Source: Streptomyces graminofaciens
GTDB taxonomy: Bacteria > Actinomycetota > Actinomycetes > Streptomycetales > Streptomycetaceae
Assembly: GCF_030294945.1 (NCBI RefSeq)
Contig: NZ_AP018448.1
Coordinates: 5,858,001-5,922,000 of the forward strand
Direction of reading: 5' to 3'
Length of the DNA: 64,000 nt
The translations under genes and the position numbers were made by a program. Shown here one piece after another: positions 10,518 to 51,221 of the stretch. The notes under the pieces were generated by a model. That model saw only the letters and a program-made list of their open reading frames with translations, was not told the DNA's origin and searched no databases. Numbering within the stretch: position 1 is the first letter of the stretch; each line of letters opens with the position of its first letter.

Positions 10518-12260
10518 GTGACGAGTACCGCGTCCTCCACGGACACCCGGCAGGGCCAGGCCCCCGAAGAGCAGCGGCCGTCGTGGCAGCAGCGGCTGCG
10601 CCGATTCGGTTACACGGCGCCGCCGAGAAGCGATGTCCGCGACCGCCTGGTGCCGCCGTACGCCCTGCCCAGCTCACGTGTCTGGGCGATGTTCGGCCTG
10701 AGTCCGGAGATCTCCGGCCGCGCGATCAGCCACTGGGCGTCCTGGGCGGGCCCCGTCCTGGTCACGATCGTCGCGGCGCTGACGCGGTTCTGGAACCTGG
10801 GCAGCCCGAAGGCGGTGATATTCGACGAGACGTACTACGCCAAGGACGCGTGGGCGATCGTCCACCGCGGGTACGAGGTCAACTGGGCCAAGAACGCCAA
10901 CCAGCTGATCCTCCAGAACAACGGGGACGTGCCGATCCCGACGGACGCGGCGTATGTGGTCCACCCGCCGGTCGGCAAGTACGTCATCGGGCTGGGCGAG
11001 CTGATGTTCGGCTTCGACCCGATCGGCTGGCGCTTCATGACGGCCCTTCTCGGTGTGCTGTCGGTGTGGATGCTCTGCCTGATCGGCGCCCGGCTCTTCC
11101 GCTCGACGTTCCTCGGCTGTGTGGCCGGCCTGCTGATGACGCTGGACGGCCTGCACTTCGTGATGAGCCGCACGGCGCTGCTGGACCAGGTGCTGATGTT
11201 CTTCGTGCTCGCCGCGTTCGGCTGTCTGCTGATCGACCGCGACAAGGCGAGGGAACGGCTGGCGGCGGCGCTGCCCGTGGACGCGGACGGAGTCGTACGC
11301 CCCAACTCCCTGATCGCCGAGACGGCACGCCTCGGCTGGCGCCCGTACCGCTGGCTGGCTGGCCTCTGTCTGGGCCTGGCCTTCGGCACCAAGTGGAACG
11401 CCCTGTACTTCCTGGTGTTCTTCGGCATCATGACGGTCCTGTGGGACTACTCGGCGCGCAAGATCGCCGGTGCCCGCCAGCCGCTGATCGCGACGCTCCA
11501 GCGCGATCTGGGCCTCGCGTTCCTCTCCACGGTCCCCGTGGTGATCACGACCTACCTGGTCTCCTGGACCGGCTGGATCCTCTCCCCGGACGACGGCACG
11601 GGCGGCTACTTCCGCAACTGGGCGGCGACCGACGGCAAGGGCGGCAGCTTCACCTGGCTGCCCGACTGGCTGCGCAGCCTGTGGCACTACGAGTACGAGG
11701 TCTACCAGTTCCACGTGGGCCTGTCGTCCCCGCACAACTACCAGTCGAACCCGTGGAGCTGGATCGTCATGGGCCGCCCGGTCTCGTTCTTCTACGAGGC
11801 CCCGGCGCCCGGCAAGGACGGCTGCCCGACCGGCACGGCCGACAAGTGCGCCCGCGAGGTCCTCGCCCTCGGCACTCCGCTGCTGTGGTGGGCGGCGGCC
11901 TTCGCGATCCTCTACGTCCTGTGGCGCTGGTTCTTCCGCCGCGACTGGCGCGCCGGCGCCATCGCCTGCGGCGTCGCGGCCGGCTACCTCCCCTGGTTCA
12001 TGTACCAGGAACGCACGATCTTCTACTTCTACGCCGTCGTCTTCCTCCCCTTCCTCTGCCTGGCGGTCACGATGATGATCGGCGCCATCCTGGGCCCACC
12101 CGGCGCGACGGAACGCCGCCGAGTGGCGGGAGCGGCGGGCGCGGGCGTCCTGGTCCTCCTGATCGCCTGGAACTTCATCTACTTCTGGCCGCTGTACACG
12201 GGCCAGCCGATCCCGATCGACTCGTGGCGGTCGCGGATGTGGCTGGATACGTGGGTCTAG
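10518..12260 (+). CDS. pmt: Protein O-mannosyltransferase (GT39)
   Basis: A 580-residue polytopic membrane enzyme that moves mannose from polyprenyl-phosphate-mannose to Ser/Thr of secreted proteins during Sec export. The loop-1 acidic motif FDETYYAKDAW and HPPVGKYVIGLGE, both typical of bacterial Pmt, are present, with roughly ten to eleven membrane helices. A GTG start at 10518 gives VTSTASSTD and a 75-residue cytoplasmic lead. In S. coelicolor this gene (SCO3154, from memory) is needed for phage phiC31 infection and for resistance to cell-wall antibiotics. Confidence 0.95.
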   Translation: MTSTASSTDTRQGQAPEEQRPSWQQRLRRFGYTAPPRSDVRDRLVPPYALPSSRVWAMFGLSPEISGRAISHWASWAGPVLVTIVAALTRFWNLGSPKAVIFDETYYAKDAWAIVHRGYEVNWAKNANQLILQNNGDVPIPTDAAYVVHPPVGKYVIGLGELMFGFDPIGWRFMTALLGVLSVWMLCLIGARLFRSTFLGCVAGLLMTLDGLHFVMSRTALLDQVLMFFVLAAFGCLLIDRDKARERLAAALPVDADGVVRPNSLIAETARLGWRPYRWLAGLCLGLAFGTKWNALYFLVFFGIMTVLWDYSARKIAGARQPLIATLQRDLGLAFLSTVPVVITTYLVSWTGWILSPDDGTGGYFRNWAATDGKGGSFTWLPDWLRSLWHYEYEVYQFHVGLSSPHNYQSNPWSWIVMGRPVSFFYEAPAPGKDGCPTGTADKCAREVLALGTPLLWWAAAFAILYVLWRWFFRRDWRAGAIACGVAAGYLPWFMYQERTIFYFYAVVFLPFLCLAVTMMIGAILGPPGATERRRVAGAAGAGVLVLLIAWNFIYFWPLYTGQPIPIDSWRSRMWLDTWV

Positions 12261-27843: not shown

Positions 27844-28404
27844 GTGAACCAGGAAACCCCCATCCCCACCTTCAGCGTGCTGCTGTCCCCCACACCGCGC
27901 GGCGCCCGCCTCGCCCGTCTGCTGGCGACGGAGCAACTCCGCACCTGGGGGCTGCCGCTGGACCCGGCGGAGCACATCGTGGCCGAGCTGGCGGCGAACG
28001 CGGCGACCCACGGCCGCGTACCCGGACGCGACTTCCGCCTCACCCTCTACGTCATCGCCGACACCCTGCGCGTAGAACTCACGGACACCCGTGACGACCG
28101 GCTGCCACAGGTCCGACACGACGCGGAACCGGACAGCGAGACGGGCCGGGGTCTGGTCATCGTGGACGCGCTGGCCCATCGCTGGGGCCTGGCGGAGGGG
28201 TTGCGGCCGCGCAAGACGGTCTGGGCGGAAATCGTTCTGCCACCGGAAGCCGGAAACCCGGGCTCCGGTGCCGTGGGCGATCAAAGCCAAAGGACTACCG
28301 GAGTGAGAGAACCCGACCAAGCCCCACCCCATCCCGCCCCGCCGAGCGCAAACTCACCCTCGCGGGTGAACATCGCCAACTCGGCTGGATTTCGGGTCGG
28401 TTGA
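27844..28404 (+). CDS. ATP-binding anti-sigma-factor-like protein (HATPase_c)
   Basis: A 186-residue protein of the RsbW-like HATPase family. The N-box is AELAANAATHG and the G-box regions are ELTDTRDDRLPQ and ETGRGLVIVDALAHRWG. The conserved domain ends near residue 135 (VWAEIVLP); the remaining 50 residues are a Pro-rich tail of doubtful meaning. It is divergent from the XRE/DUF397 pair, reproducing the regulator/DUF397/HATPase set repeated many times in Streptomyces genomes. GTG start at 27844. Confidence 0.85.
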   Translation: MNQETPIPTFSVLLSPTPRGARLARLLATEQLRTWGLPLDPAEHIVAELAANAATHGRVPGRDFRLTLYVIADTLRVELTDTRDDRLPQVRHDAEPDSETGRGLVIVDALAHRWGLAEGLRPRKTVWAEIVLPPEAGNPGSGAVGDQSQRTTGVREPDQAPPHPAPPSANSPSRVNIANSAGFRVG

Positions 28405-28521
28405 TACCTCTACGCTCAGCGCAGCACAACCCCCACAAACAACCGCAGACATGCGACGGCCCCCGCCGGGACGGCAATCCCAATGCGAGGGCCTGACCAC
28501 CGAGGAAGTAGGAGCTTCCCG

Positions 28522-43086: not shown

Positions 43087-43115
43087 TTCGGCCACGCCCT
43101 CGCATCGGCTAATGT
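43087..43115 (+). promoter_or_regulatory. Candidate promoter of the 27-codon peptide gene
   Basis: TTCGGC and TAATGT are separated by exactly 17 bp, a housekeeping-sigma-like arrangement, about 60 bp before the peptide's GTG. The stretch is clearly AT-richer than its surroundings. Confidence 0.45.
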
Positions 43116-43174
43116 TTCCACGAATCATCGATCAGACGCTCTCACTTCGTACACCCACTCTAATCAGGAGAGAA

Positions 43175-43258
43175 GTGCGCACGTTTTCCGTCCTCGTCGC
43201 CACGGCTGCTATTTCGGTCATGAACATGACCTCCGCGTTCGCCGAGTGCATTTGGTAG
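43175..43258 (+). CDS. Tiny secreted peptide (27 aa, nearly all signal peptide)
   Basis: A 27-codon gene, GTG to TAG, with AGGAGAG directly upstream. The product starts VRTFSVLVATAAISVMNM and continues TSAFA-ECIW: one basic residue, a hydrophobic core and an AxA signal-peptidase site, leaving only Glu-Cys-Ile-Trp after cleavage. A promoter-like pair lies upstream and a short hairpin (43262-43281) follows. It converges on the SARP-STAND-TPR regulator gene, whose stop is 13 bp away. I read it as a candidate precursor of a short secreted signal. It could instead be the remnant of a longer secreted protein cut by a stop. Too short for routine gene calling. Confidence 0.5.
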   Translation: MRTFSVLVATAAISVMNMTSAFAECIW

Positions 43259-43270
43259 CCCCAGCGGCTC

Positions 43271-46200
43271 TCAGGAGCCGGTAGCACCCCACTCGTCGAA
43301 CAGACGGTGCAGCTCAGCAGCCTCCCCGTCCGTCCCCAGCCTCCGGTAGACCGTCAGCGCGCGTTGCGCGTGGGCCCGGGCGGACGGGAAGTTGCGCATA
43401 CGGAGATGCACCCGGGAAATACCGGCCAGCGCCCGCGCCGAACACAGCGAATAACTGTGCTCGCGCGCTATAGAAAGCGCGTTCCGATACGTGTCCAGCG
43501 CAGCACCCAACCGCCTCTCCCTGTAATGCGTGTCAGCAATTCCGAGGAGAGCCCTTTGCCTCTCATACGAATTGTCAATACGGCGGGCGACCTCCTCCGC
43601 GGCCCCGAAGTGGGCCAGGGCCTCCTCCATGCGTCCGGCACCCGCGCAGGTCTCGCCCAGACAGATGAGGACGTTGACCTCACCGATGGCGTCCCCGCCG
43701 GCCCGGTGGCTGGCAAGGGCCCGCCGGAAGCAGGCGAGCGCGCGTCCCGGCTGCCCCGTGGCGCTGTACACGGCACCGAGGTTCGTGTCGAGGATCGCGA
43801 GCTCCTTCTTGCCCCCGACCTCGCGCATCAGCGCCAGAGCGCGCTTGTAGTGATCGCCGGCCTCCTCGTGGAGCCCCAGGGCCAGCCGGATGTCCCCCAG
43901 GTTGTTCCAAGCGAGGGCCTCGCCGTGGCGGTCGCGCAGTTCCCGGTTGATGTCCAGCATGGTCCGGAAGCAGTGCGTCGCCTCGGCGTACTCCGCCCGG
44001 TGCACCCTGGCCGTACCCTGCACGTTCAGCGTCGCCGCCACCCCGCGCCGGTCGTCGACGGCGCGGTAGAGCACAAGGGCCCGGGCCAGTTCCCGCAAGC
44101 ACGCCTCACCTCGGCCCGCCCCCAGATGGGCGCGGCCGATCTCGAACAGGGCGTCGGCACGGCCCCGGGGATCGTCGAGGCCCTCGAACAGGCTCAGCGC
44201 CTCGGTCGCGGCGGCGAGGGCGGCGCCGTGGTTCTCCCGGGCCAGGACGCTCGCCCGCTCCACCAACGTCTGGGCGAGCGCCGGCCGGTCCTCGCCCGAG
44301 CGGAGTGCGGTGAGGGCGGCGGCGTGCAGTTCGGCGGTGATGCGGTGCGTGCCCCAGAGCTGCAGGGAGTACGCGAGGACGTGCGGGAACAGACCGGCGA
44401 ACTCCGGGAACTCCCCCGCGGCCGTACGCGCCACGGCCAGCAGATTTCCGCGCTCCACCGTCAACCACACCGACGCCTCGTCGGCGGCGGACTCGGCGTG
44501 TGGACCCATGGTGAAACCGGGCGTGATCGGTGCCGTCAGCTCCGGCGGGACAGGTCGCCTGCGGCGCCGGGGGTGGGCGAGCCGATCCGCCCGGTCCGCG
44601 GCCGTGACGTAGTACGACATCAGGCGCCGCAGCGCCGCGCGACGCTCGGCCGGAAGTTCCTCCCGGCGACCCAGGCGACCGCCGAACGCGCGGGCCAGGT
44701 CATGGAGTTGGTAGCGGTCCCGGACCCGTTCGTCGAGGAGGTGGCGGTCCAGCAGGGCATCCGCCGCTCGGCGCACCGCGCCCGGTTCGACGTCCCCGGA
44801 CAGCGCCATCGCGGCCTCCAGGGTGATGTCGGGACCCGGATGCAGTGCCAGCCTGCGGAACAGTCTTCGTGCCGGGACGTCGAGGTCGGCGCACGACAGT
44901 TGCAGGGCGGCCGCGACCCGCTCGTCGAACTCGTCCAGCCGGTCGGTGGCCCCGTCCAGCCGGTCCGCGACGTACTCCAGGTCCCAGGTGTCCCGGTGGC
45001 GGAACCGGCTCGCGAGCAGTTGCACGGTGAGCGGGTGACGGCCGCACAGTTCCACGACGCGACGCAGGACCCCGGTGTCGGAGACCCGGGCCGCCCCCGC
45101 GATCCGGGCGAAGAGCGCACCTGCCTCGGACACCGACAGCACGTCCAGATGCAGCGAGGTGGCGCCGTCCAGCTCGGAGAGCCGGTTGCGGCTGGCCACG
45201 ATCGCGTGGCAGTCCGGCGAGCCGGGCAGCAGCGGCCGTATCTGTTCGGCGTCCCGGGCGTTGTCGAGCACGACCAGCACCCGGTGCTGGGCGGTCCACT
45301 CACGCCAGCGCGCGGTCCGCTCGTCCAGGGTGACCGGCAGCGGATCGGGGACGCCGACGGTGTGCAGCAGAAACGCCAGGGCGTCCGCGGGATCGTAGGG
45401 CGGCTGATCGCTGTAGGCGCGCAGGTCCACATAGAACTGACCGTCCGGGTAGCGGCCGCGCATCCGGTGCGCGGCATGCACGATCAACGCGGACTTGCCC
45501 ACCCCGGGCATACCGTGCACGACGGTGACCGGCAGCGCCGTCCCGTTGCCCTCGGGAACGGGATCGGCGAGCAGGATGTCGAGCTCGCTCGTGCGGCCGG
45601 TGAAATCCCTGGTGTCGCGCGGCAGGCTGCTCCCCGGATGGCCGACCGCACGGTCCGCCGCCCGCACGGCACCCCCCTGGCCGCTCCCCGGCACACCGGT
45701 CGCCGGGCTGTGCTCCCGCAGGGCGGGGTCCTGGCCGAGGATGCGAACCTGCAGCTCCTGTAGTTCTGTGCCGGGGTCGATGCCGAGTTCCTCGCCGAGC
45801 CGGTGCCGCGTGGTGCGGTACAGGGCCAGGGCCTCGCCGTCCCGGCCGGACCGGTACAGGGCCAGCATCAGGGCGGCTACCGCCTGCTGGGCCAAGGGGT
45901 TCAGGGAGACGAGCTCGTGGAGTTCGCCCAGGAGGTCGGCGTGGCGGCCCAGTTCCAGCTCCAGCCGGATGCGCTCCTCCCGGATCCGACGGTGGTCCTC
46001 GGTCAGCCGAGCCCGGGCGGAGGCGGCCCAGTCGCCGGTGAACTCCGCGAACGGCTCCCCCCGCCACAGCGACTCGGCGGTGTGCAGCAGACCGACGGCG
46101 TACTCCCGGTCACCGCGCCCGGCAGCCGCCCGGGCCTCGGCACGCAGCCGTTGCAGCCGGACGAAGTCCACGTCGTCCGTGTGCTGGACACGCAGCCGGT

Positions 46201-46474
46201 AGCGGCGCGGGGACGGACGCTCCAGCCGCGCCAGATCACCGACGGCGCGGCGCAGCCGGGTGCGCAGCCGGGAGAGATAGGTGTGCAGGGTCTCCACGGC
46301 GGTCACGGGCACTTCGTCGTCGTCCCAGACGCGCTCGAGGAGCGTGTCGAAGGCGACCGGATCCCCTTGGGCGTACAGCAGGACCGCCAGCACCCTGCGC
46401 TCCTTCAGAGATCCGAGCGGGTACTGCCGTCCCCGGTGCCACAGTTCGAGCGGCCCGAGCGCGAGAAGGTGCAC
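43271..46474 (-). CDS. SARP-STAND-TPR transcriptional regulator (AfsR-like)
   Basis: A 1,067-residue regulator. Residues 1-90 are the OmpR-like winged helix of SARP activators (LGPLELWHRGRQYPLGSLKE), about 95-245 the BTAD helical domain, and about 290-560 an NB-ARC NTPase with P-loop HGMPGVGKSAL and Walker B RVLVVLDNARD. A helical region and about eight TPR-like repeats fill the rest (AWNNLGDIRLALGLHEEAGD, ILDTNLGAVYSATGQPGRAL). AfsR-type proteins switch on antibiotic or developmental genes after ligand or phosphorylation input. Tandem GTG codons at 46477/46474 are the likely start, right beside a 19-bp repeat array. No biosynthetic genes lie adjacent. Confidence 0.9.
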   Translation of the reverse strand: MHLLALGPLELWHRGRQYPLGSLKERRVLAVLLYAQGDPVAFDTLLERVWDDDEVPVTAVETLHTYLSRLRTRLRRAVGDLARLERPSPRRYRLRVQHTDDVDFVRLQRLRAEARAAAGRGDREYAVGLLHTAESLWRGEPFAEFTGDWAASARARLTEDHRRIREERIRLELELGRHADLLGELHELVSLNPLAQQAVAALMLALYRSGRDGEALALYRTTRHRLGEELGIDPGTELQELQVRILGQDPALREHSPATGVPGSGQGGAVRAADRAVGHPGSSLPRDTRDFTGRTSELDILLADPVPEGNGTALPVTVVHGMPGVGKSALIVHAAHRMRGRYPDGQFYVDLRAYSDQPPYDPADALAFLLHTVGVPDPLPVTLDERTARWREWTAQHRVLVVLDNARDAEQIRPLLPGSPDCHAIVASRNRLSELDGATSLHLDVLSVSEAGALFARIAGAARVSDTGVLRRVVELCGRHPLTVQLLASRFRHRDTWDLEYVADRLDGATDRLDEFDERVAAALQLSCADLDVPARRLFRRLALHPGPDITLEAAMALSGDVEPGAVRRAADALLDRHLLDERVRDRYQLHDLARAFGGRLGRREELPAERRAALRRLMSYYVTAADRADRLAHPRRRRRPVPPELTAPITPGFTMGPHAESAADEASVWLTVERGNLLAVARTAAGEFPEFAGLFPHVLAYSLQLWGTHRITAELHAAALTALRSGEDRPALAQTLVERASVLARENHGAALAAATEALSLFEGLDDPRGRADALFEIGRAHLGAGRGEACLRELARALVLYRAVDDRRGVAATLNVQGTARVHRAEYAEATHCFRTMLDINRELRDRHGEALAWNNLGDIRLALGLHEEAGDHYKRALALMREVGGKKELAILDTNLGAVYSATGQPGRALACFRRALASHRAGGDAIGEVNVLICLGETCAGAGRMEEALAHFGAAEEVARRIDNSYERQRALLGIADTHYRERRLGAALDTYRNALSIAREHSYSLCSARALAGISRVHLRMRNFPSARAHAQRALTVYRRLGTDGEAAELHRLFDEWGATGS

Positions 46475-46483
46475 CACTTCCCC

Positions 46484-46597
46484 CAGGTGGTTCCGCTTCT
46501 TCCAGGCGTTGCGCGACTTTTCAGGTGGGGCGCGACTCTTCAGGTGGGGCGCGAATTTCCAGGTGTGGCGCCGCTGTCCCGGCGATGCGCTTTTCTC
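46484..46597 (-). repeat. 19-bp tandem repeat array upstream of the SARP regulator
   Basis: Five units begin at 46484, 46503, 46522, 46541 and 46560, each exactly 19 bp, with consensus CAGGTGGGGCGCGACTCTT on the plus strand; a sixth degenerate unit starts at 46579. The array ends next to the GTG start of the regulator. Nineteen is not a multiple of three, so no protein repeat results even if a longer frame is translated. It is most likely an iterated binding site or RNA-level control element. Confidence 0.8.
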
Positions 46598-46867
46598 GCG
46601 TCGGCGGTTCCCGCACGGGGCACCCGACGGGTCGCACACCAGTCCACCTCATGTCTCACTGTCGCCACCTCGACGGATGGAACAGAGGTGTAAAGCAGGG
46701 CGCACAGTCGCGCGAAGGGGCGCACAGAGCCGGGCAGGAGACCGGCGTCCGAGAAGTGCAAGTTTTCTGCAAGCCCGCCGTCCAAACACCCGGGGAGACC
46801 TGAGCCGTGGCCGCGCACGACATACCGGCCGCACACCTCAACTCGGTTGCCACACGGGGGAGTTCCC

Positions 46868-48130
46868 ATGAGCCTGCTGATGCCGGACGCCGACCGGCGC
46901 CCTGCCGTGCCGCTGCGTCTCGATGTCGAACGCTGGGCGACCTTCCGCATCCGCAAGCGGGTGCTCGCGGTCGTGCACACGGTGACCTCCGCCCGGCGGT
47001 TGCTGGACGCGGTCCGGCTGCTGGAGGGCGACCCTCGGGTGCAGGTCCTGTTCACGGTGGCCGGTGACGTCTTCAACCACGGCGTGGACGAGTTCCTCGA
47101 GGACACCAGGGCCCTGGTCGTGCCGTGGGGCCAGGCCGTGCACACACGCTTCGACCTCGCGCTGGCCGCGAGCTACGGAAGCCTGCACGAACTGAACGTG
47201 CCGGTGATCGTGCTCCCGCACGGCGCCTCGTACAACCGGCGCATCTCCGTGCCCGACGGCCGCCGCGGCCGTCTGCCCGCGCTGCGCGAGGTGTACGGGC
47301 TGGGCCGGCAGTGGCTGGTCCGCGACGGGGTGGTGGTGCCCGCGGCGATCGTCCTGGCCCACGAGGACGACCGCACCCGCCTCGGCCGGGAGTGCCCCGA
47401 GGCGCTGCCCGTGGCCGAGGTGGTCGGGGACCCCTGCTACGACCGCGTCGCGGCGAGCCTGTCCGCGCGGGACCTGTACCGGACTGCACTGGGCGCGGCA
47501 CCCCGCCAGGAGGTGGTGCTCGTCTGCTCTACCTGGGGGCCCGATTCGCTTCTCGGCCGCCACTGGGACCTGCTGGAGCAGCTGGCCGCCCAACTCCCCC
47601 GGGAGGACTTCCGCATCGTCGTCATGCTCCACTCGAACGTCTGGAACGCCCACAGCGAATGGCACATCCGCAGTGCGTTCGCCGGGCTGAGCCGCTGTGG
47701 CGTCGGACTGGTCAGCCAGCACGCGGAGTGGTGCGGCGCCCTGGTCGCGGCCGACTACATCGTGGGAGACCACGGCTCCGTGTCGCTGTACGGGACGATG
47801 ACGGGCGCCCGCCTGCTGACCGCCGGCTCCCCGGACACCGACCTCGATCCCTCCTCACCGATGGCCGAGTTGCGCTCGCTGGCACCCCGGATCGACGCGG
47901 ATCGGCCTCTGCTCCGCCAGCTGCGGCGAAGCTCCGCCACGTACCGCCCGGACCGGTACGCGCGGGTCGCGGCCCGGATCAGTTCGGAGCCGGGCCTGTT
48001 CGCCCGAAGGATGCGCACCCTGCTGTACCGGAAGCTGCGCCTGCGCGCCCCGGTCGCCCGCCCCGCGCCGGAATCAGCGGCACTGCCGGTCCTGTTGCGG
48101 TACGGCGAGCCGGGGGGTGCCAGGCCGTGA
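46868..48130 (+). CDS. TagF/CDP-glycerol-transferase-like GT-B protein (actinobacterial family)
   Basis: A 420-residue protein starting at ATG 46868 after GGGGGAG. I recall similar Streptomyces proteins labelled 'translation initiation factor 2', which nothing here supports. Spaced motifs suit a GT-B fold related to TagB/TagF teichoic-acid transferases: [10 protein letters not shown] near residue 190, [12 protein letters not shown] near 220, [14 protein letters not shown], and [16 protein letters not shown] near 300 in place of the TagF DYSS block. The donor and acceptor are unknown. It is divergent from the SARP regulator and overlaps the next gene by 4 bp. Confidence 0.75.
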
Positions 48131-48504
48131 GTACGGCAGCGCGGCGGGCGCCGGGGCCGTGGGCCCGGTACGTCCGCGTCACACCGCCGGGACCGGACGG
48201 CGGTCCGGCGGCCGTGGACGAGCATCTGCGGGTGGAACTGCCCGCCCCGCCGCCCTGGCCCGCCCTCGCCGACGTGCTGGTGGCGCCGGGGGCGGGAAAC
48301 GGTGCGGCCGACGAGCTCGCCGCCGCCAATCCGGGCGCGGCGGTGGTGGCGGTGCACACCGGGGCCGGGAGCTGCTGGCTGCGCGTGGGCCCGCACGGGC
48401 GCGTGCCGCTACGGCTGGTCCTGACCGAGCGGCACGCGGCCGTGTGCCCGTGGCCGGTCTGGGCGTCACTGGCGTATGCCTGGCTGGTGACGGGCGCACG
48501 GTGA
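48127..48504 (+). CDS. Small uncharacterised protein coupled to the GT-B protein
   Basis: A 125-residue protein whose GTG overlaps the upstream stop by 4 bp (GTGA), so it is co-translated. The middle reads [34 protein letters not shown] and the end is [18 protein letters not shown] recognise no domain. The repeated [15 protein letters not shown] and [10 protein letters not shown] strand-turn-helix pattern resembles half of a Rossmann-like fold. Confidence 0.65.
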
Positions 48505-48639: not shown

Positions 48640-48870
48640 CGGCGGTTCAGACGCCAAAGTTCGGCAGCCCGGTCACCAGGCGACGACCGTCCAGCCGCAG
48701 GAGACCACCAGCCCAGCCACCAAGCAACAACCGTCCAACCGCAAGAGACCGCCAGCCCAGCCACCAAGCAACAACCGTCCAACCGCAAGAGACCGCCAGC
48801 CCAGCCACCAAGCAACAACCGTCCAACCGCCACGTACCGCAGGCCCGGTCGCCGGGCGACGGTGGTTGCC
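48640..48870. repeat. 44-bp tandem repeat array between convergent genes
   Basis: Marker positions recur at 48645, 48689, 48733, 48777, 48821 and about 48865, exactly 44 bp apart. The units from about 48722 to 48834 are nearly identical; the outer ones have diverged. The plus strand is rich in AACCG and CCAACC, giving regularly spaced GG pairs on the minus strand. It fills the gap between the 125-aa gene and the STAND gene, whose stops face each other. There are no spacers, so it is not CRISPR. Confidence 0.8.
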
Positions 48871-48887: not shown

Positions 48888-51092
48888 TCAGTCGGCCCCG
48901 TCGTCCTCGCCCAGCAGCCGCAGTCGCGCACGCAGTTCGTCGGCTTGTCTTGGCTGGTTCGCCGCGACGGCCAGGGCGAGCGCCTGGTGATAGCGCTGCC
49001 GGGCGAGGGCGCGCTGCCCACGCCCCTCGGCGACCTCGGCCAGGGCCCGGAGCGCACGGGCCGTCTCCGAATCGGCTCCCACGGCACCGAGATCGGCCAG
49101 TGCTCCGGAGAGCAGCCGCTCCGCCTCGTCGAGCCCGCCCCGGAGCAGGGCGGACCGGCCGAGCAGGGTGGTGGCACGTGCCGCGTTGTAGGGGTCGTCC
49201 ACGGCCACCAACGCGGCGCGTGCCGCGGCGGCACCTTCGGCGGCCCGCTCAGGCCGGCCGCGGGCGAGCTCGATGTCGGCCGCGTTGAGCCGGGCGAGCC
49301 CACCCGCCCGCTCGTCCCCGTGCCTCGGGAGTTCGACGGCCGCGCGGTCGAACAGCACGGCTGCTTCGTCCAGTTGCCCCAGGCGCTGATGAGCCAGTCC
49401 GCGGTAGTTGAGCGTACGGGCATGGCCGAGGAGGTCCCCGACGGAGGCGAAGAGCCTGGCCGCCTCCTCGAACATCTCCAGCGCCCGCTCGTGCCGTCCA
49501 CGCCCCAGCTCGCCCTGGCCCCCGGACGTCAGCATCCGGCACGCGGCCTGTGTGTCGCCCACCTCGTGCGCCGCGACCAGCCCCTCCTCGTACACCGCGT
49601 GCCACTCGTCGTAGTGCTTGCGGCGGATGAAGAGCGGCCCCATGGCATCGGCGAGCTGCCAGCAGGCGGCCGCCGCGCCCGCCGCCCTGGCGTGCCGGAT
49701 CACCGCCATCAACTGGGGCAGCTCCCGCTCCAGCCAGTCCAACGCCGCCCGTGGGCCGGGGCCGGGGTCCCCCTCGACCACCGGACCGGGACCGTAGGAC
49801 CGCTCACGCAAAGGGTGGTACGGCTCGACGGCCTTCTCCGCCCGGGTCGCGGTGGCCAGATAGTGGTCGGCGATACGGCGGAACGCGGCGGCCCGTCCCG
49901 CCTCGGATTCGTCCTGCGCGGCCTTCTCGGTGGCGTGCAACCGGACGAGGTCGTGGAATCGGTAGCGGTCCTCGCCCACGTCGATCAGCAGATTGGCGTC
50001 GTACAGGTTCTCCAGCGACCGCTCCACATCGGGCAGGACGGCGCCGGACCCCGGCCCGTCGGCGGCGGACCCCGGCCCGTCGGCGGCGGACCCGCGCCCC
50101 AGGACCGCCGCCGCCACCGCGCTCCCGAACTCCCTTCCCGGGTGGACACCGAGCAGCCGGTAGAGCTGGGCCGCCGTCTCGGGCAGCCCCCGGTACGACA
50201 GGTCGAGCGCGGCGCGTACGCCGTGGTCGCCGTCGATCGCGAGCGCGTCCAACCGCCCCTGCTCGGCGGCAAGGGCCCGCACCATCGTGGTGATCCGTCT
50301 GCCCGGCCGGGCGGCGAGCCGGGCTCCCGCGACGCGCACGGCGAGCGGCAGCCCGGCGCACAGACCTACGAGGGCCCGGGCGTCGTCGGCCTGGGTGGCC
50401 ACCCGATCGTCGGCGAGGGTCGCCGCGAGCAGCTCCATCGCCGCTTCCGGGGCGAGTGGCTCCAACTGCATCTGATAGCAGCCCTCGAGTGCCAGTCCGG
50501 ACATCCGCCGACGGCTGGTCACGAGGGTGACGTTCGAGCCGCCCGGCAGCAGCGGCCGCACCTGGGCCGCCGATGCCGCGTCGTCGAGCAGGACCACGAC
50601 GGCGCGCTCGGCGGTCAACGAGCGGTACAGCGCCGCCCGTTCCGCCAGACCGTGGGGCACCTGCCGGGGCGGCACGCCCAGGCCACGCAGGAATCCGCTC
50701 AGCACCTCGGCGGGATCTGCGGGCCCGGCCGGCGACTGGGCGCCCAGGTCCGCGTACAACTGGCCGTCCGGGAAATCCGGGCGCAGCCTGTGCAGCCAGG
50801 ACAGGGCGAGGGCGGTCTTGCCCACCCCGCCCAGTCCGCTCACCGTGGCGAGGACGGGATGGCCCCGGCGGGCGGCGGAGGCCCGGTGGTGTTCCAGGCG
50901 CTCGACTTCGGCCGTGCGGGCGGTGAGGGGAACCGGGGGCGGGAGCTGCCACGGCAGCGGGGTGCGCGGCTGTGATGCGGCCGGATCGCCGGTACGGACG
51001 TGGACGTCGCCGTACACGACGGCGGCCTGCACGCTGGGACCGTGCACGACGCCGCTGAGCTCGTTGTGGTCGCCCCGTTCCTGCCCCCGCAC
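48888..51092 (-). CDS. STAND (NB-ARC) NTPase with TPR repeats, no SARP domain
   Basis: A 734-residue protein from the GTG at 51092 (GGGAGAC upstream). A short N-terminal segment, HNELSGVVHGPSVQAAVVYG, is the Ser-Gly/His-Gly beta motif often seen ahead of actinobacterial STAND proteins. The NB-ARC domain has P-loop SGLGGVGKTALAL near residue 88 and Walker B VVVLLDDA. A helical arm leads to C-terminal TPR repeats (about 480-730). A Gly/Ser/Ala/Asp insert repeated twice (GSAADGP) sits mid-protein. It lacks a DNA-binding domain, so it signals through partners. Confidence 0.85.
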   Translation of the reverse strand: MRGQERGDHNELSGVVHGPSVQAAVVYGDVHVRTGDPAASQPRTPLPWQLPPPVPLTARTAEVERLEHHRASAARRGHPVLATVSGLGGVGKTALALSWLHRLRPDFPDGQLYADLGAQSPAGPADPAEVLSGFLRGLGVPPRQVPHGLAERAALYRSLTAERAVVVLLDDAASAAQVRPLLPGGSNVTLVTSRRRMSGLALEGCYQMQLEPLAPEAAMELLAATLADDRVATQADDARALVGLCAGLPLAVRVAGARLAARPGRRITTMVRALAAEQGRLDALAIDGDHGVRAALDLSYRGLPETAAQLYRLLGVHPGREFGSAVAAAVLGRGSAADGPGSAADGPGSGAVLPDVERSLENLYDANLLIDVGEDRYRFHDLVRLHATEKAAQDESEAGRAAAFRRIADHYLATATRAEKAVEPYHPLRERSYGPGPVVEGDPGPGPRAALDWLERELPQLMAVIRHARAAGAAAACWQLADAMGPLFIRRKHYDEWHAVYEEGLVAAHEVGDTQAACRMLTSGGQGELGRGRHERALEMFEEAARLFASVGDLLGHARTLNYRGLAHQRLGQLDEAAVLFDRAAVELPRHGDERAGGLARLNAADIELARGRPERAAEGAAAARAALVAVDDPYNAARATTLLGRSALLRGGLDEAERLLSGALADLGAVGADSETARALRALAEVAEGRGQRALARQRYHQALALAVAANQPRQADELRARLRLLGEDDGAD

Positions 51093-51221
51093 GTCTCCCC
51101 CATCCGACGGGTAAGTACCGCCTCCTGGGGATGAGTATTTCCGCACGGCAATCGAACAACCGGTGCCGCACGGCGTGGTGCGTCGCAGACCTGTGACGTT
51201 GGTCGCCCCGTCAGTGACGGA

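Follow-up and report, generated by a model that had tools for sequence, protein, structure and literature searches.

A small gene facing a SARP-STAND-TPR regulator in Streptomyces graminofaciens is a candidate source of its peptide ligand

Actinomycetota are described as signalling typically by enzyme-made small molecules, peptides being the way of the Bacillota (PMC10075063), and for Streptomyces the pertinent part of a 2026 quorum-sensing review names only gamma-butyrolactones (PMC13220807). In the RRNPP(A) systems (Rap-Phr, NprR-NprX, PlcR-PapR, Rgg-SHP) a small propeptide gene stands beside that of a TPR receptor and supplies a short C-terminal signal, of which the precursors carry one to several copies (PMC11343458); export is described as proceeding generally via Sec, and via PptAB for the Rgg/PrgX propeptides (PMC10075063). 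Large SARPs such as AfsR combine SARP, NOD (NB-ARC) and TPR parts (PMC10936776, PMC10972967), and inducer binding to the TPR sensor domain of AfsR 'remains elusive' (PMC10936776). Here we analysed a 64,000-nt stretch of the Streptomyces graminofaciens genome (contig NZ_AP018448.1, positions 5,858,001 to 5,922,000), hereafter the window, in which a 27-codon mini-gene converges with the gene of a SARP-STAND-TPR regulator. Comparative sequence data indicate that this frame is a real gene under selection, and on balance we favour the view that it encodes the peptide ligand of the neighbouring regulator, which would switch on a divergent operon.

The mini-gene product of the window, VRTFSVLVATAAISVMNMTSAFAECIW, has 27 amino acids (aa) and gave a single match at E up to 10 in its own 11.6-Mb genome. 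The frame, its Shine-Dalgarno-like word and the promoter-like pair ahead of it, all named in a first-pass annotation of the sequence, were located at positions of the kind described there (Table 1); the TAATGT of the pair was found again in L144 and L032 (loci are given L numbers), and L033 has TAGCAT. The stop codon of the regulator lies at 43271-43273 on the minus strand, which leaves 12 bp between the convergent genes instead of the 13 bp counted before. The hairpin reported behind the frame has its stem, but it is a weak one, with z -1.58 and equally good folding in 14 of 200 shuffles, and sequence inspection found no T run after it. As proposed earlier, the convergent regulator carries a TPR array on a SARP-STAND base: over about 1,068 aa, Pfam assigned Trans_reg_C, BTAD, NB-ARC and TPR (PF00486, PF03704, PF00931 and PF13424 above cut-offs; TPR_12 and others), that is, all the parts that define a large SARP (OmpR-type DNA-binding domain, BTAD, NB-ARC, TPR). 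For the TPR domain, at window 43274-44482, the structure model predicts a superhelix. Window positions 46511-46571, just ahead of the probable SARP start, are taken up by a 19-bp repeat in 3.2 copies.

Orthologous loci were collected by a pattern-limited scan of one genome per species over 84,980 species, which gave ten full-length regulators at 53-85% identity, and by searching Streptomyces genomes, first 199 and later 392, with the 419-aa enzyme encoded divergently from the regulator. Own genome included, enzyme copies were present in 15 genomes at 62% identity or more, a cut set by us, and in 26/392 Streptomyces genomes at E up to 1e-140. Duplicate genomes were removed before counting (L145 = L032, L148 = L041, L100 = L033; L003 is the same place as L106), and 33 distinct loci were compared, the window among them, with regulator orthologues 49-89% identical. 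A regulator with readable flank was available in 31; L149 was left out because its contig stops about 220 bp past the regulator, and L108 has no regulator.

A strict test required a frame of 8-80 aa on the strand opposite to the regulator, near its stop, with a Shine-Dalgarno-like word and an aromatic tail. It was passed by 28/31 readable loci (28/32 when L149 is counted), so that nearly all orthologues retain a mini-gene. The comparison that the first-pass annotation had proposed, of the 100 bp past the regulator stop in close relatives, is positive: the four nearest genomes share the start codon, the hydrophobic core, the AxA site and the tail. The loci that did not pass are L101, which has MFYKLLQWMW with a weaker Shine-Dalgarno word, L112, where WMW lies inside a longer frame, and L152, which has none. 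At other large SARPs none of 48 rows passed (44 distinct places; four rows were repeat fetches), and random anchors passed in 90 of 6000 cases, the anchors being drawn from sequences that include the real mini-genes. The tail motif had been derived from the loci collected first and was broadened to [MIY]W once L153 had been seen, which favours the in-sample rate; among nine distinct loci fetched after the motif had first been noted, six passed the original motif, L153 passed only the widened one, L152 failed and L149 was too short. Relative to the end of the regulator frame, the mini-gene stop lies anywhere between 147 bp inside and 161 bp outside (28/31 loci). In L036 (about 11195-11297) the regulator frame itself extends about 100 bp beyond its usual stop and overlaps the mini-gene. 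By eye, the regions upstream of the mini-genes have a TGATCA-like word in common.

The first-pass annotation had expected a short variable C-terminus. The reverse was found: the tail is the conserved part of the peptide, ECIW in the window clade (...AFAECIW in the window, ...AHAECIW in L144, L032 and L033) and elsewhere mostly RWMW, QWMW, xMW or FMWWWRG, as in L107 (...VVFRWMW), L103 (...GAAQWMW), L106 (MFYKLLQWMW), L039 (...KDQLMW), L034, L151 and L154 (...FMWWWRG(R/L)) and L153 (...EDIMYW). Compared pairwise over their final 13 codons, L144, L032 and L033 show 3, 3 and 2 synonymous differences and zero nonsynonymous ones; the window departs from these three at 3-4 nonsynonymous bases, at S and F ahead of the cleavage site, and at none in ECIW. 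Furthermore, the S. umbrinus precursor holds three tails (NQVMW, QQVMW, QQVMW), and of its four relatives two have three tails and two have two, one of the tails being NQVTW, while a relative of L102 terminates in RWMRADQWMW. The repeat-tail precursors are annotated as 'hypothetical protein' in the named sources. Short extensions past the motif occur in L034, L038, L041, L110, L150, L151 and L154, and a long frame in L112. A reading of the frame as the truncated start of a longer secreted protein is excluded by the stop directly after the motif in most orthologues and by the tandem motif copies.

These data also argue that the mini-gene is linked to the regulator and co-diversifies with it. 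When the tails, sorted by our own judgement into seven types, were mapped for 30 rows on the tree of the regulators, 8 changes sufficed, and 300 label shuffles required 13-17; the figure rests on one tree built by a quick method. The peptide follows the SARP rather than the enzyme, because no convincing peptide was found at the 11 enzyme loci at which no SARP was found (L108 and ten at 38-43% enzyme identity), where the sole frame to pass the filter, 76 aa in L165, is unlike a signal peptide. Among these, L157-L162, L164 and L165 have TagF-like genes (38-43%) with a STAND-type match and no SARP DNA-binding part found in the stretch, and in the L156 and L163 stretches neither a STAND-type match nor a SARP part was found. 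The pairing of enzyme and STAND protein may thus be broader than the peptide system.

A sister clade of regulators seems, on the same kind of comparison, to have a peptide class of its own. At the sister loci (L113-L132, L166-L170, L172), ordered enzyme, STAND, SARP, the enzyme is 43-48% and the SARP 32-36% identical to that of the window. Small frames with a C[ILM] motif, mostly with hydrophobic leader, start 83-285 bp behind the sister SARP on the same strand, and by the strict test they were found at 13/18 true sister SARP ends, the motif having been derived from the same loci on which it was counted. The raw count was 13/19, in which the anchor of L117 sat on the STAND gene, its SARP running off the stretch; L121 (enzyme and STAND, no SARP end), L173 and L174 (no SARP in the stretch) and L171 (ending before the SARP) are not counted. 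Five more such frames (L119, L122, L125, L129, L130) were seen by eye in three-frame translation, a reading of which the start codon was not part, and those of L119 and L122 are unlike signal peptides. All six new sister loci have a C[ILM] frame by eye, the motif being short and occurring also in other frames there. In a control set of 31 large SARPs three hydrophobic small open reading frames were found, two with C[ILM], and both are sister loci (L006 and L022). With the sister loci L006 (= L113), L022 (= L131), L005 (= L129) and L010 (= L130) removed, C[ILM] frames were present at 0/27 large SARPs outside both clades. The sister peptides end in ...ARICIPT, ...NICIPSS, ...NEVCMPS, ...RCIII or ...TCIAY, and no class of W-ended frames was found behind 17 sister SARPs. 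The two classes may be related, with CIMYL/CIMIW in the sisters and IMYW/CIW in the window clade.

Judged by the five criteria for RRNPP membership set out in PMC10075063, the locus agrees with the family in three: the propeptides fall within 10-100 aa (that of the window has 27 aa, and the 28 others span 10-71 aa), the receptor carries TPRs, and the genes are adjacent. The receptor lies well outside the 250-500 aa range, and as to Sec export, 22/29 peptides have a hydrophobic 15-residue stretch (mean Kyte-Doolittle value at least 1.3). The RRNPP-like pairing suggested in the first-pass annotation is partly supported, peptide binding by the TPRs being putative. As in the RRNPP(A) systems, the short signal would be C-terminal and has diversified with the receptor, whose TPR model fits Rap/NprR; unlike them, the putative receptor, about 1,070 aa long, is actinobacterial and includes a SARP DNA-binding domain and NB-ARC. 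The ComR-ComS type-II XIP, with its C-terminal WW, is likewise a Trp-rich short peptide from a small frame directly downstream of the receptor gene (PMC5131902), although the endings here are WMW, FMWWW and CIW and the receptor has SARP and NB-ARC domains. The 10-12 aa frames without signal sequence in L101, L105 and L106 resemble the leaderless communication peptides of RopB systems as described in PMC10518010, from which the present family differs in having leaderless and signal-peptide forms within one regulator family. With AfsR and other large SARPs the regulator shares its architecture; however, it stays below the AfsR equivalog cut-off (NF053617, 492.8 of 1430 bits), and the accounts of AfsR-type SARPs in the relevant parts of PMC10936776 and PMC10972967 mention no peptide partner. 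The best reading is a system that is RRNPP-like in its logic and not an RRNPP member. NosP is a small SARP without TPRs, and its reported ligand is a RiPP (ribosomally synthesized and post-translationally modified peptide) leader peptide. That NosP senses a peptide is attributed in PMC10972967 to Li et al. 2018, a work on 'peptidyl and small-molecule ligands'.

In the mechanism we propose, the 27-aa precursor would probably lodge in the membrane or cross it, and cleavage after AFA would release ECIW. The tail could re-enter through an oligopeptide importer, for which the genome holds at least 17 candidate SBP_bac_5 genes; in S. coelicolor, import of a signal oligopeptide is ascribed to BldK (PMC11303876). 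Inside the cell it would bind the TPR superhelix of the regulator and relieve autoinhibition of the SARP domain, which would then turn on the divergent operon of the TagF-like enzyme; the leaderless variants may act within the cell. The peptide is probably an exported pheromone. More tentatively, and a little short of an even chance, one group of large SARPs may be an actinobacterial family of cytoplasmic receptors for linear ribosomal peptide pheromones, one clade using CIW/WMW-type peptides to control a teichoic-acid-polymerase-like operon and a sister clade using the C[ILM] type. If this holds, Actinomycetota would have evolved their own quorum sensing by peptides and TPR receptors, separate from the RRNPP family and equipped with a STAND switch. 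Among the papers listed by full-text searches of the open-licence PMC literature, none was seen to pair a SARP with a peptide gene, subscription papers and preprints lying outside this scope. The candidate ligand is encoded beside the putative receptor at about 30 loci in several sequence types with matching receptors, which makes the pairing testable with synthetic tetra- to decapeptides, and a peptide that activates SARP-controlled genes would be a practical tool for silent clusters.

A reading we hold to be unlikely, though the strongest of the competitors, keeps the peptide as ligand of the regulator and dispenses with cell-cell signalling: a membrane-bound or cytosolic mini-protein would tune the regulator in the producing cell. 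The same points weigh for it and against an exported pheromone, namely that 7/29 peptides lack a hydrophobic leader (L034, L041, L151 and L154 have soluble leaders, and L101, L105 and L106 are 10-12 aa long) and that in the RWMW class a single hydrophobic stretch leads straight into the motif, an arrangement expected of a small membrane protein whose tail lies in the cytoplasm. The export-like leader described earlier is not shared by these seven. However, an AFA/AHA site precedes ECIW in 4/4 window-clade genes, and L099, L102 and their relatives have cleavable-looking signal peptides with long spacers, which with the tandem tails fit secreted, processed signals.

Rather improbable is a RiPP-like precursor, whose tail would be the core that the TagF-like protein and the 125-aa protein of the locus modify into a small product. 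A short, conserved, Trp-rich tail behind a variable leader, tandem cores and two cassette proteins without assigned function would suit it, but enzyme genes without a SARP show no convincing peptide, sister loci with the enzyme have a different motif, and none of the conserved genes is recognised by Pfam as a known RiPP maturase. The cut-off of the HaaT model NF041717 (TPR protein of cyclophane RiPP systems), 1125 bits, was reached neither by the regulator (381.8) nor by the second STAND protein (242.6). Still less credit is due to a defence module in which the STAND proteins would act as guards of the cell, with the peptide as decoy, bait or antimicrobial effector. Each cassette does hold two STAND-TPR proteins, and its occurrence is patchy, with differing outer flanks where checked; yet PADLOC returned nothing beyond a generic match to TPRs and a weak one to PDC-S39 (15.8 bits), and one of the regulators, as a SARP, is a transcription factor whose sole candidate operator precedes the enzyme operon. 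Neither a known RiPP class nor an anti-phage system is favoured. A chance frame or a DNA-level element of the convergent region, to which the overlap of the weak hairpin with the regulator end might point, is most improbable, the tails of L144, L032 and L033 changing only at third positions, the stop position shifting, the tails differing and the tandem tails staying in frame.

Table 1. Positions of the mini-gene, the regulator and associated features in the window.
Feature	Position	Strand	Basis
Mini-gene, GTG start, 27 codons + TAG, tail ECIW behind AFA site	43175..43258	+	open reading frame, relatives, codon comparison
Shine-Dalgarno-like AGGAGAG	43166..43172	+	sequence; such a word required in the strict test passed by 28/31 loci
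Promoter-like pair TTCGGC (43087-43092), 17-bp spacer, TAATGT (43110-43115)	43087..43115	+	
Small hairpin between the convergent genes, stem 43265-43270/43275-43280, regulator stop codon in loop	43265..43280	none	
SARP-STAND(NB-ARC)-TPR regulator, start 46480 or 46477 inferred from frame, open from 46639	43271..46480	-	
Direct repeat TGCAAG-N5-TGCAAG, 11-bp spaced, before the TagF-like gene, candidate SARP operator	46757..46773	+	
Predicted TagF-like GT-B enzyme, 419 aa	46871..48130	+	structure comparison
125-aa protein, family not assigned, start overlapping the enzyme gene end	48127..48504	+	
Second STAND-TPR protein, 752 aa, no DNA-binding domain found	48888..51146	-	

Gene content indicates that the peptide sits in a conserved cassette with the TagF-like enzyme, the 125-aa protein and the second STAND-TPR protein. 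Among the 32 other loci the enzyme is present in 32, a tblastn match to the 125-aa gene in 32 (in L154 over only 46 residues at the contig end, beyond which the second STAND gene would lie), the regulator in 31 and the second STAND-TPR protein in 31. The locus behaves as a cassette, because the outer flanks differ in most loci compared: among ten with flanking genes called, only L032 and L033 have flanks like those of the window, apart from one weak match in L041. The enzyme had no Pfam match; its best Foldseek match was TagF 3l7i (12% identity, TM about 0.5), obtained with a model of pLDDT 70.9 whose N-terminal third is poor, in a comparison that covers the families it lists. The interval between the convergent 125-aa and STAND genes contains a tandem repeat with a 44-bp unit (3.8 copies, 93% matches, window 48665-48830).

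The 11-bp spacing of the direct repeat before the enzyme gene resembles that of SARP sites. A 17-base pattern built on it, TGCARRNTTYCTGCARG, is matched once in the whole 11.6-Mb genome when up to 1 mismatch is allowed. The strict repeat occurs in 24/29 enzyme upstream regions, with near forms seen by eye in the other five, and a looser one in 4/20 sister enzyme upstream regions; it was found before the second STAND gene in 0/28 regions and before the mini-gene in 0/29, which rules out a SARP operator common to mini-gene and enzyme. Many enzyme promoters of the orthologous loci show by eye repeated GGCGCA words about 19-20 bp apart, possibly a second operator. Elsewhere in the window, Rfam identified the Streptomyces sRNA scr4677 at 28261-28521 (202 bits).
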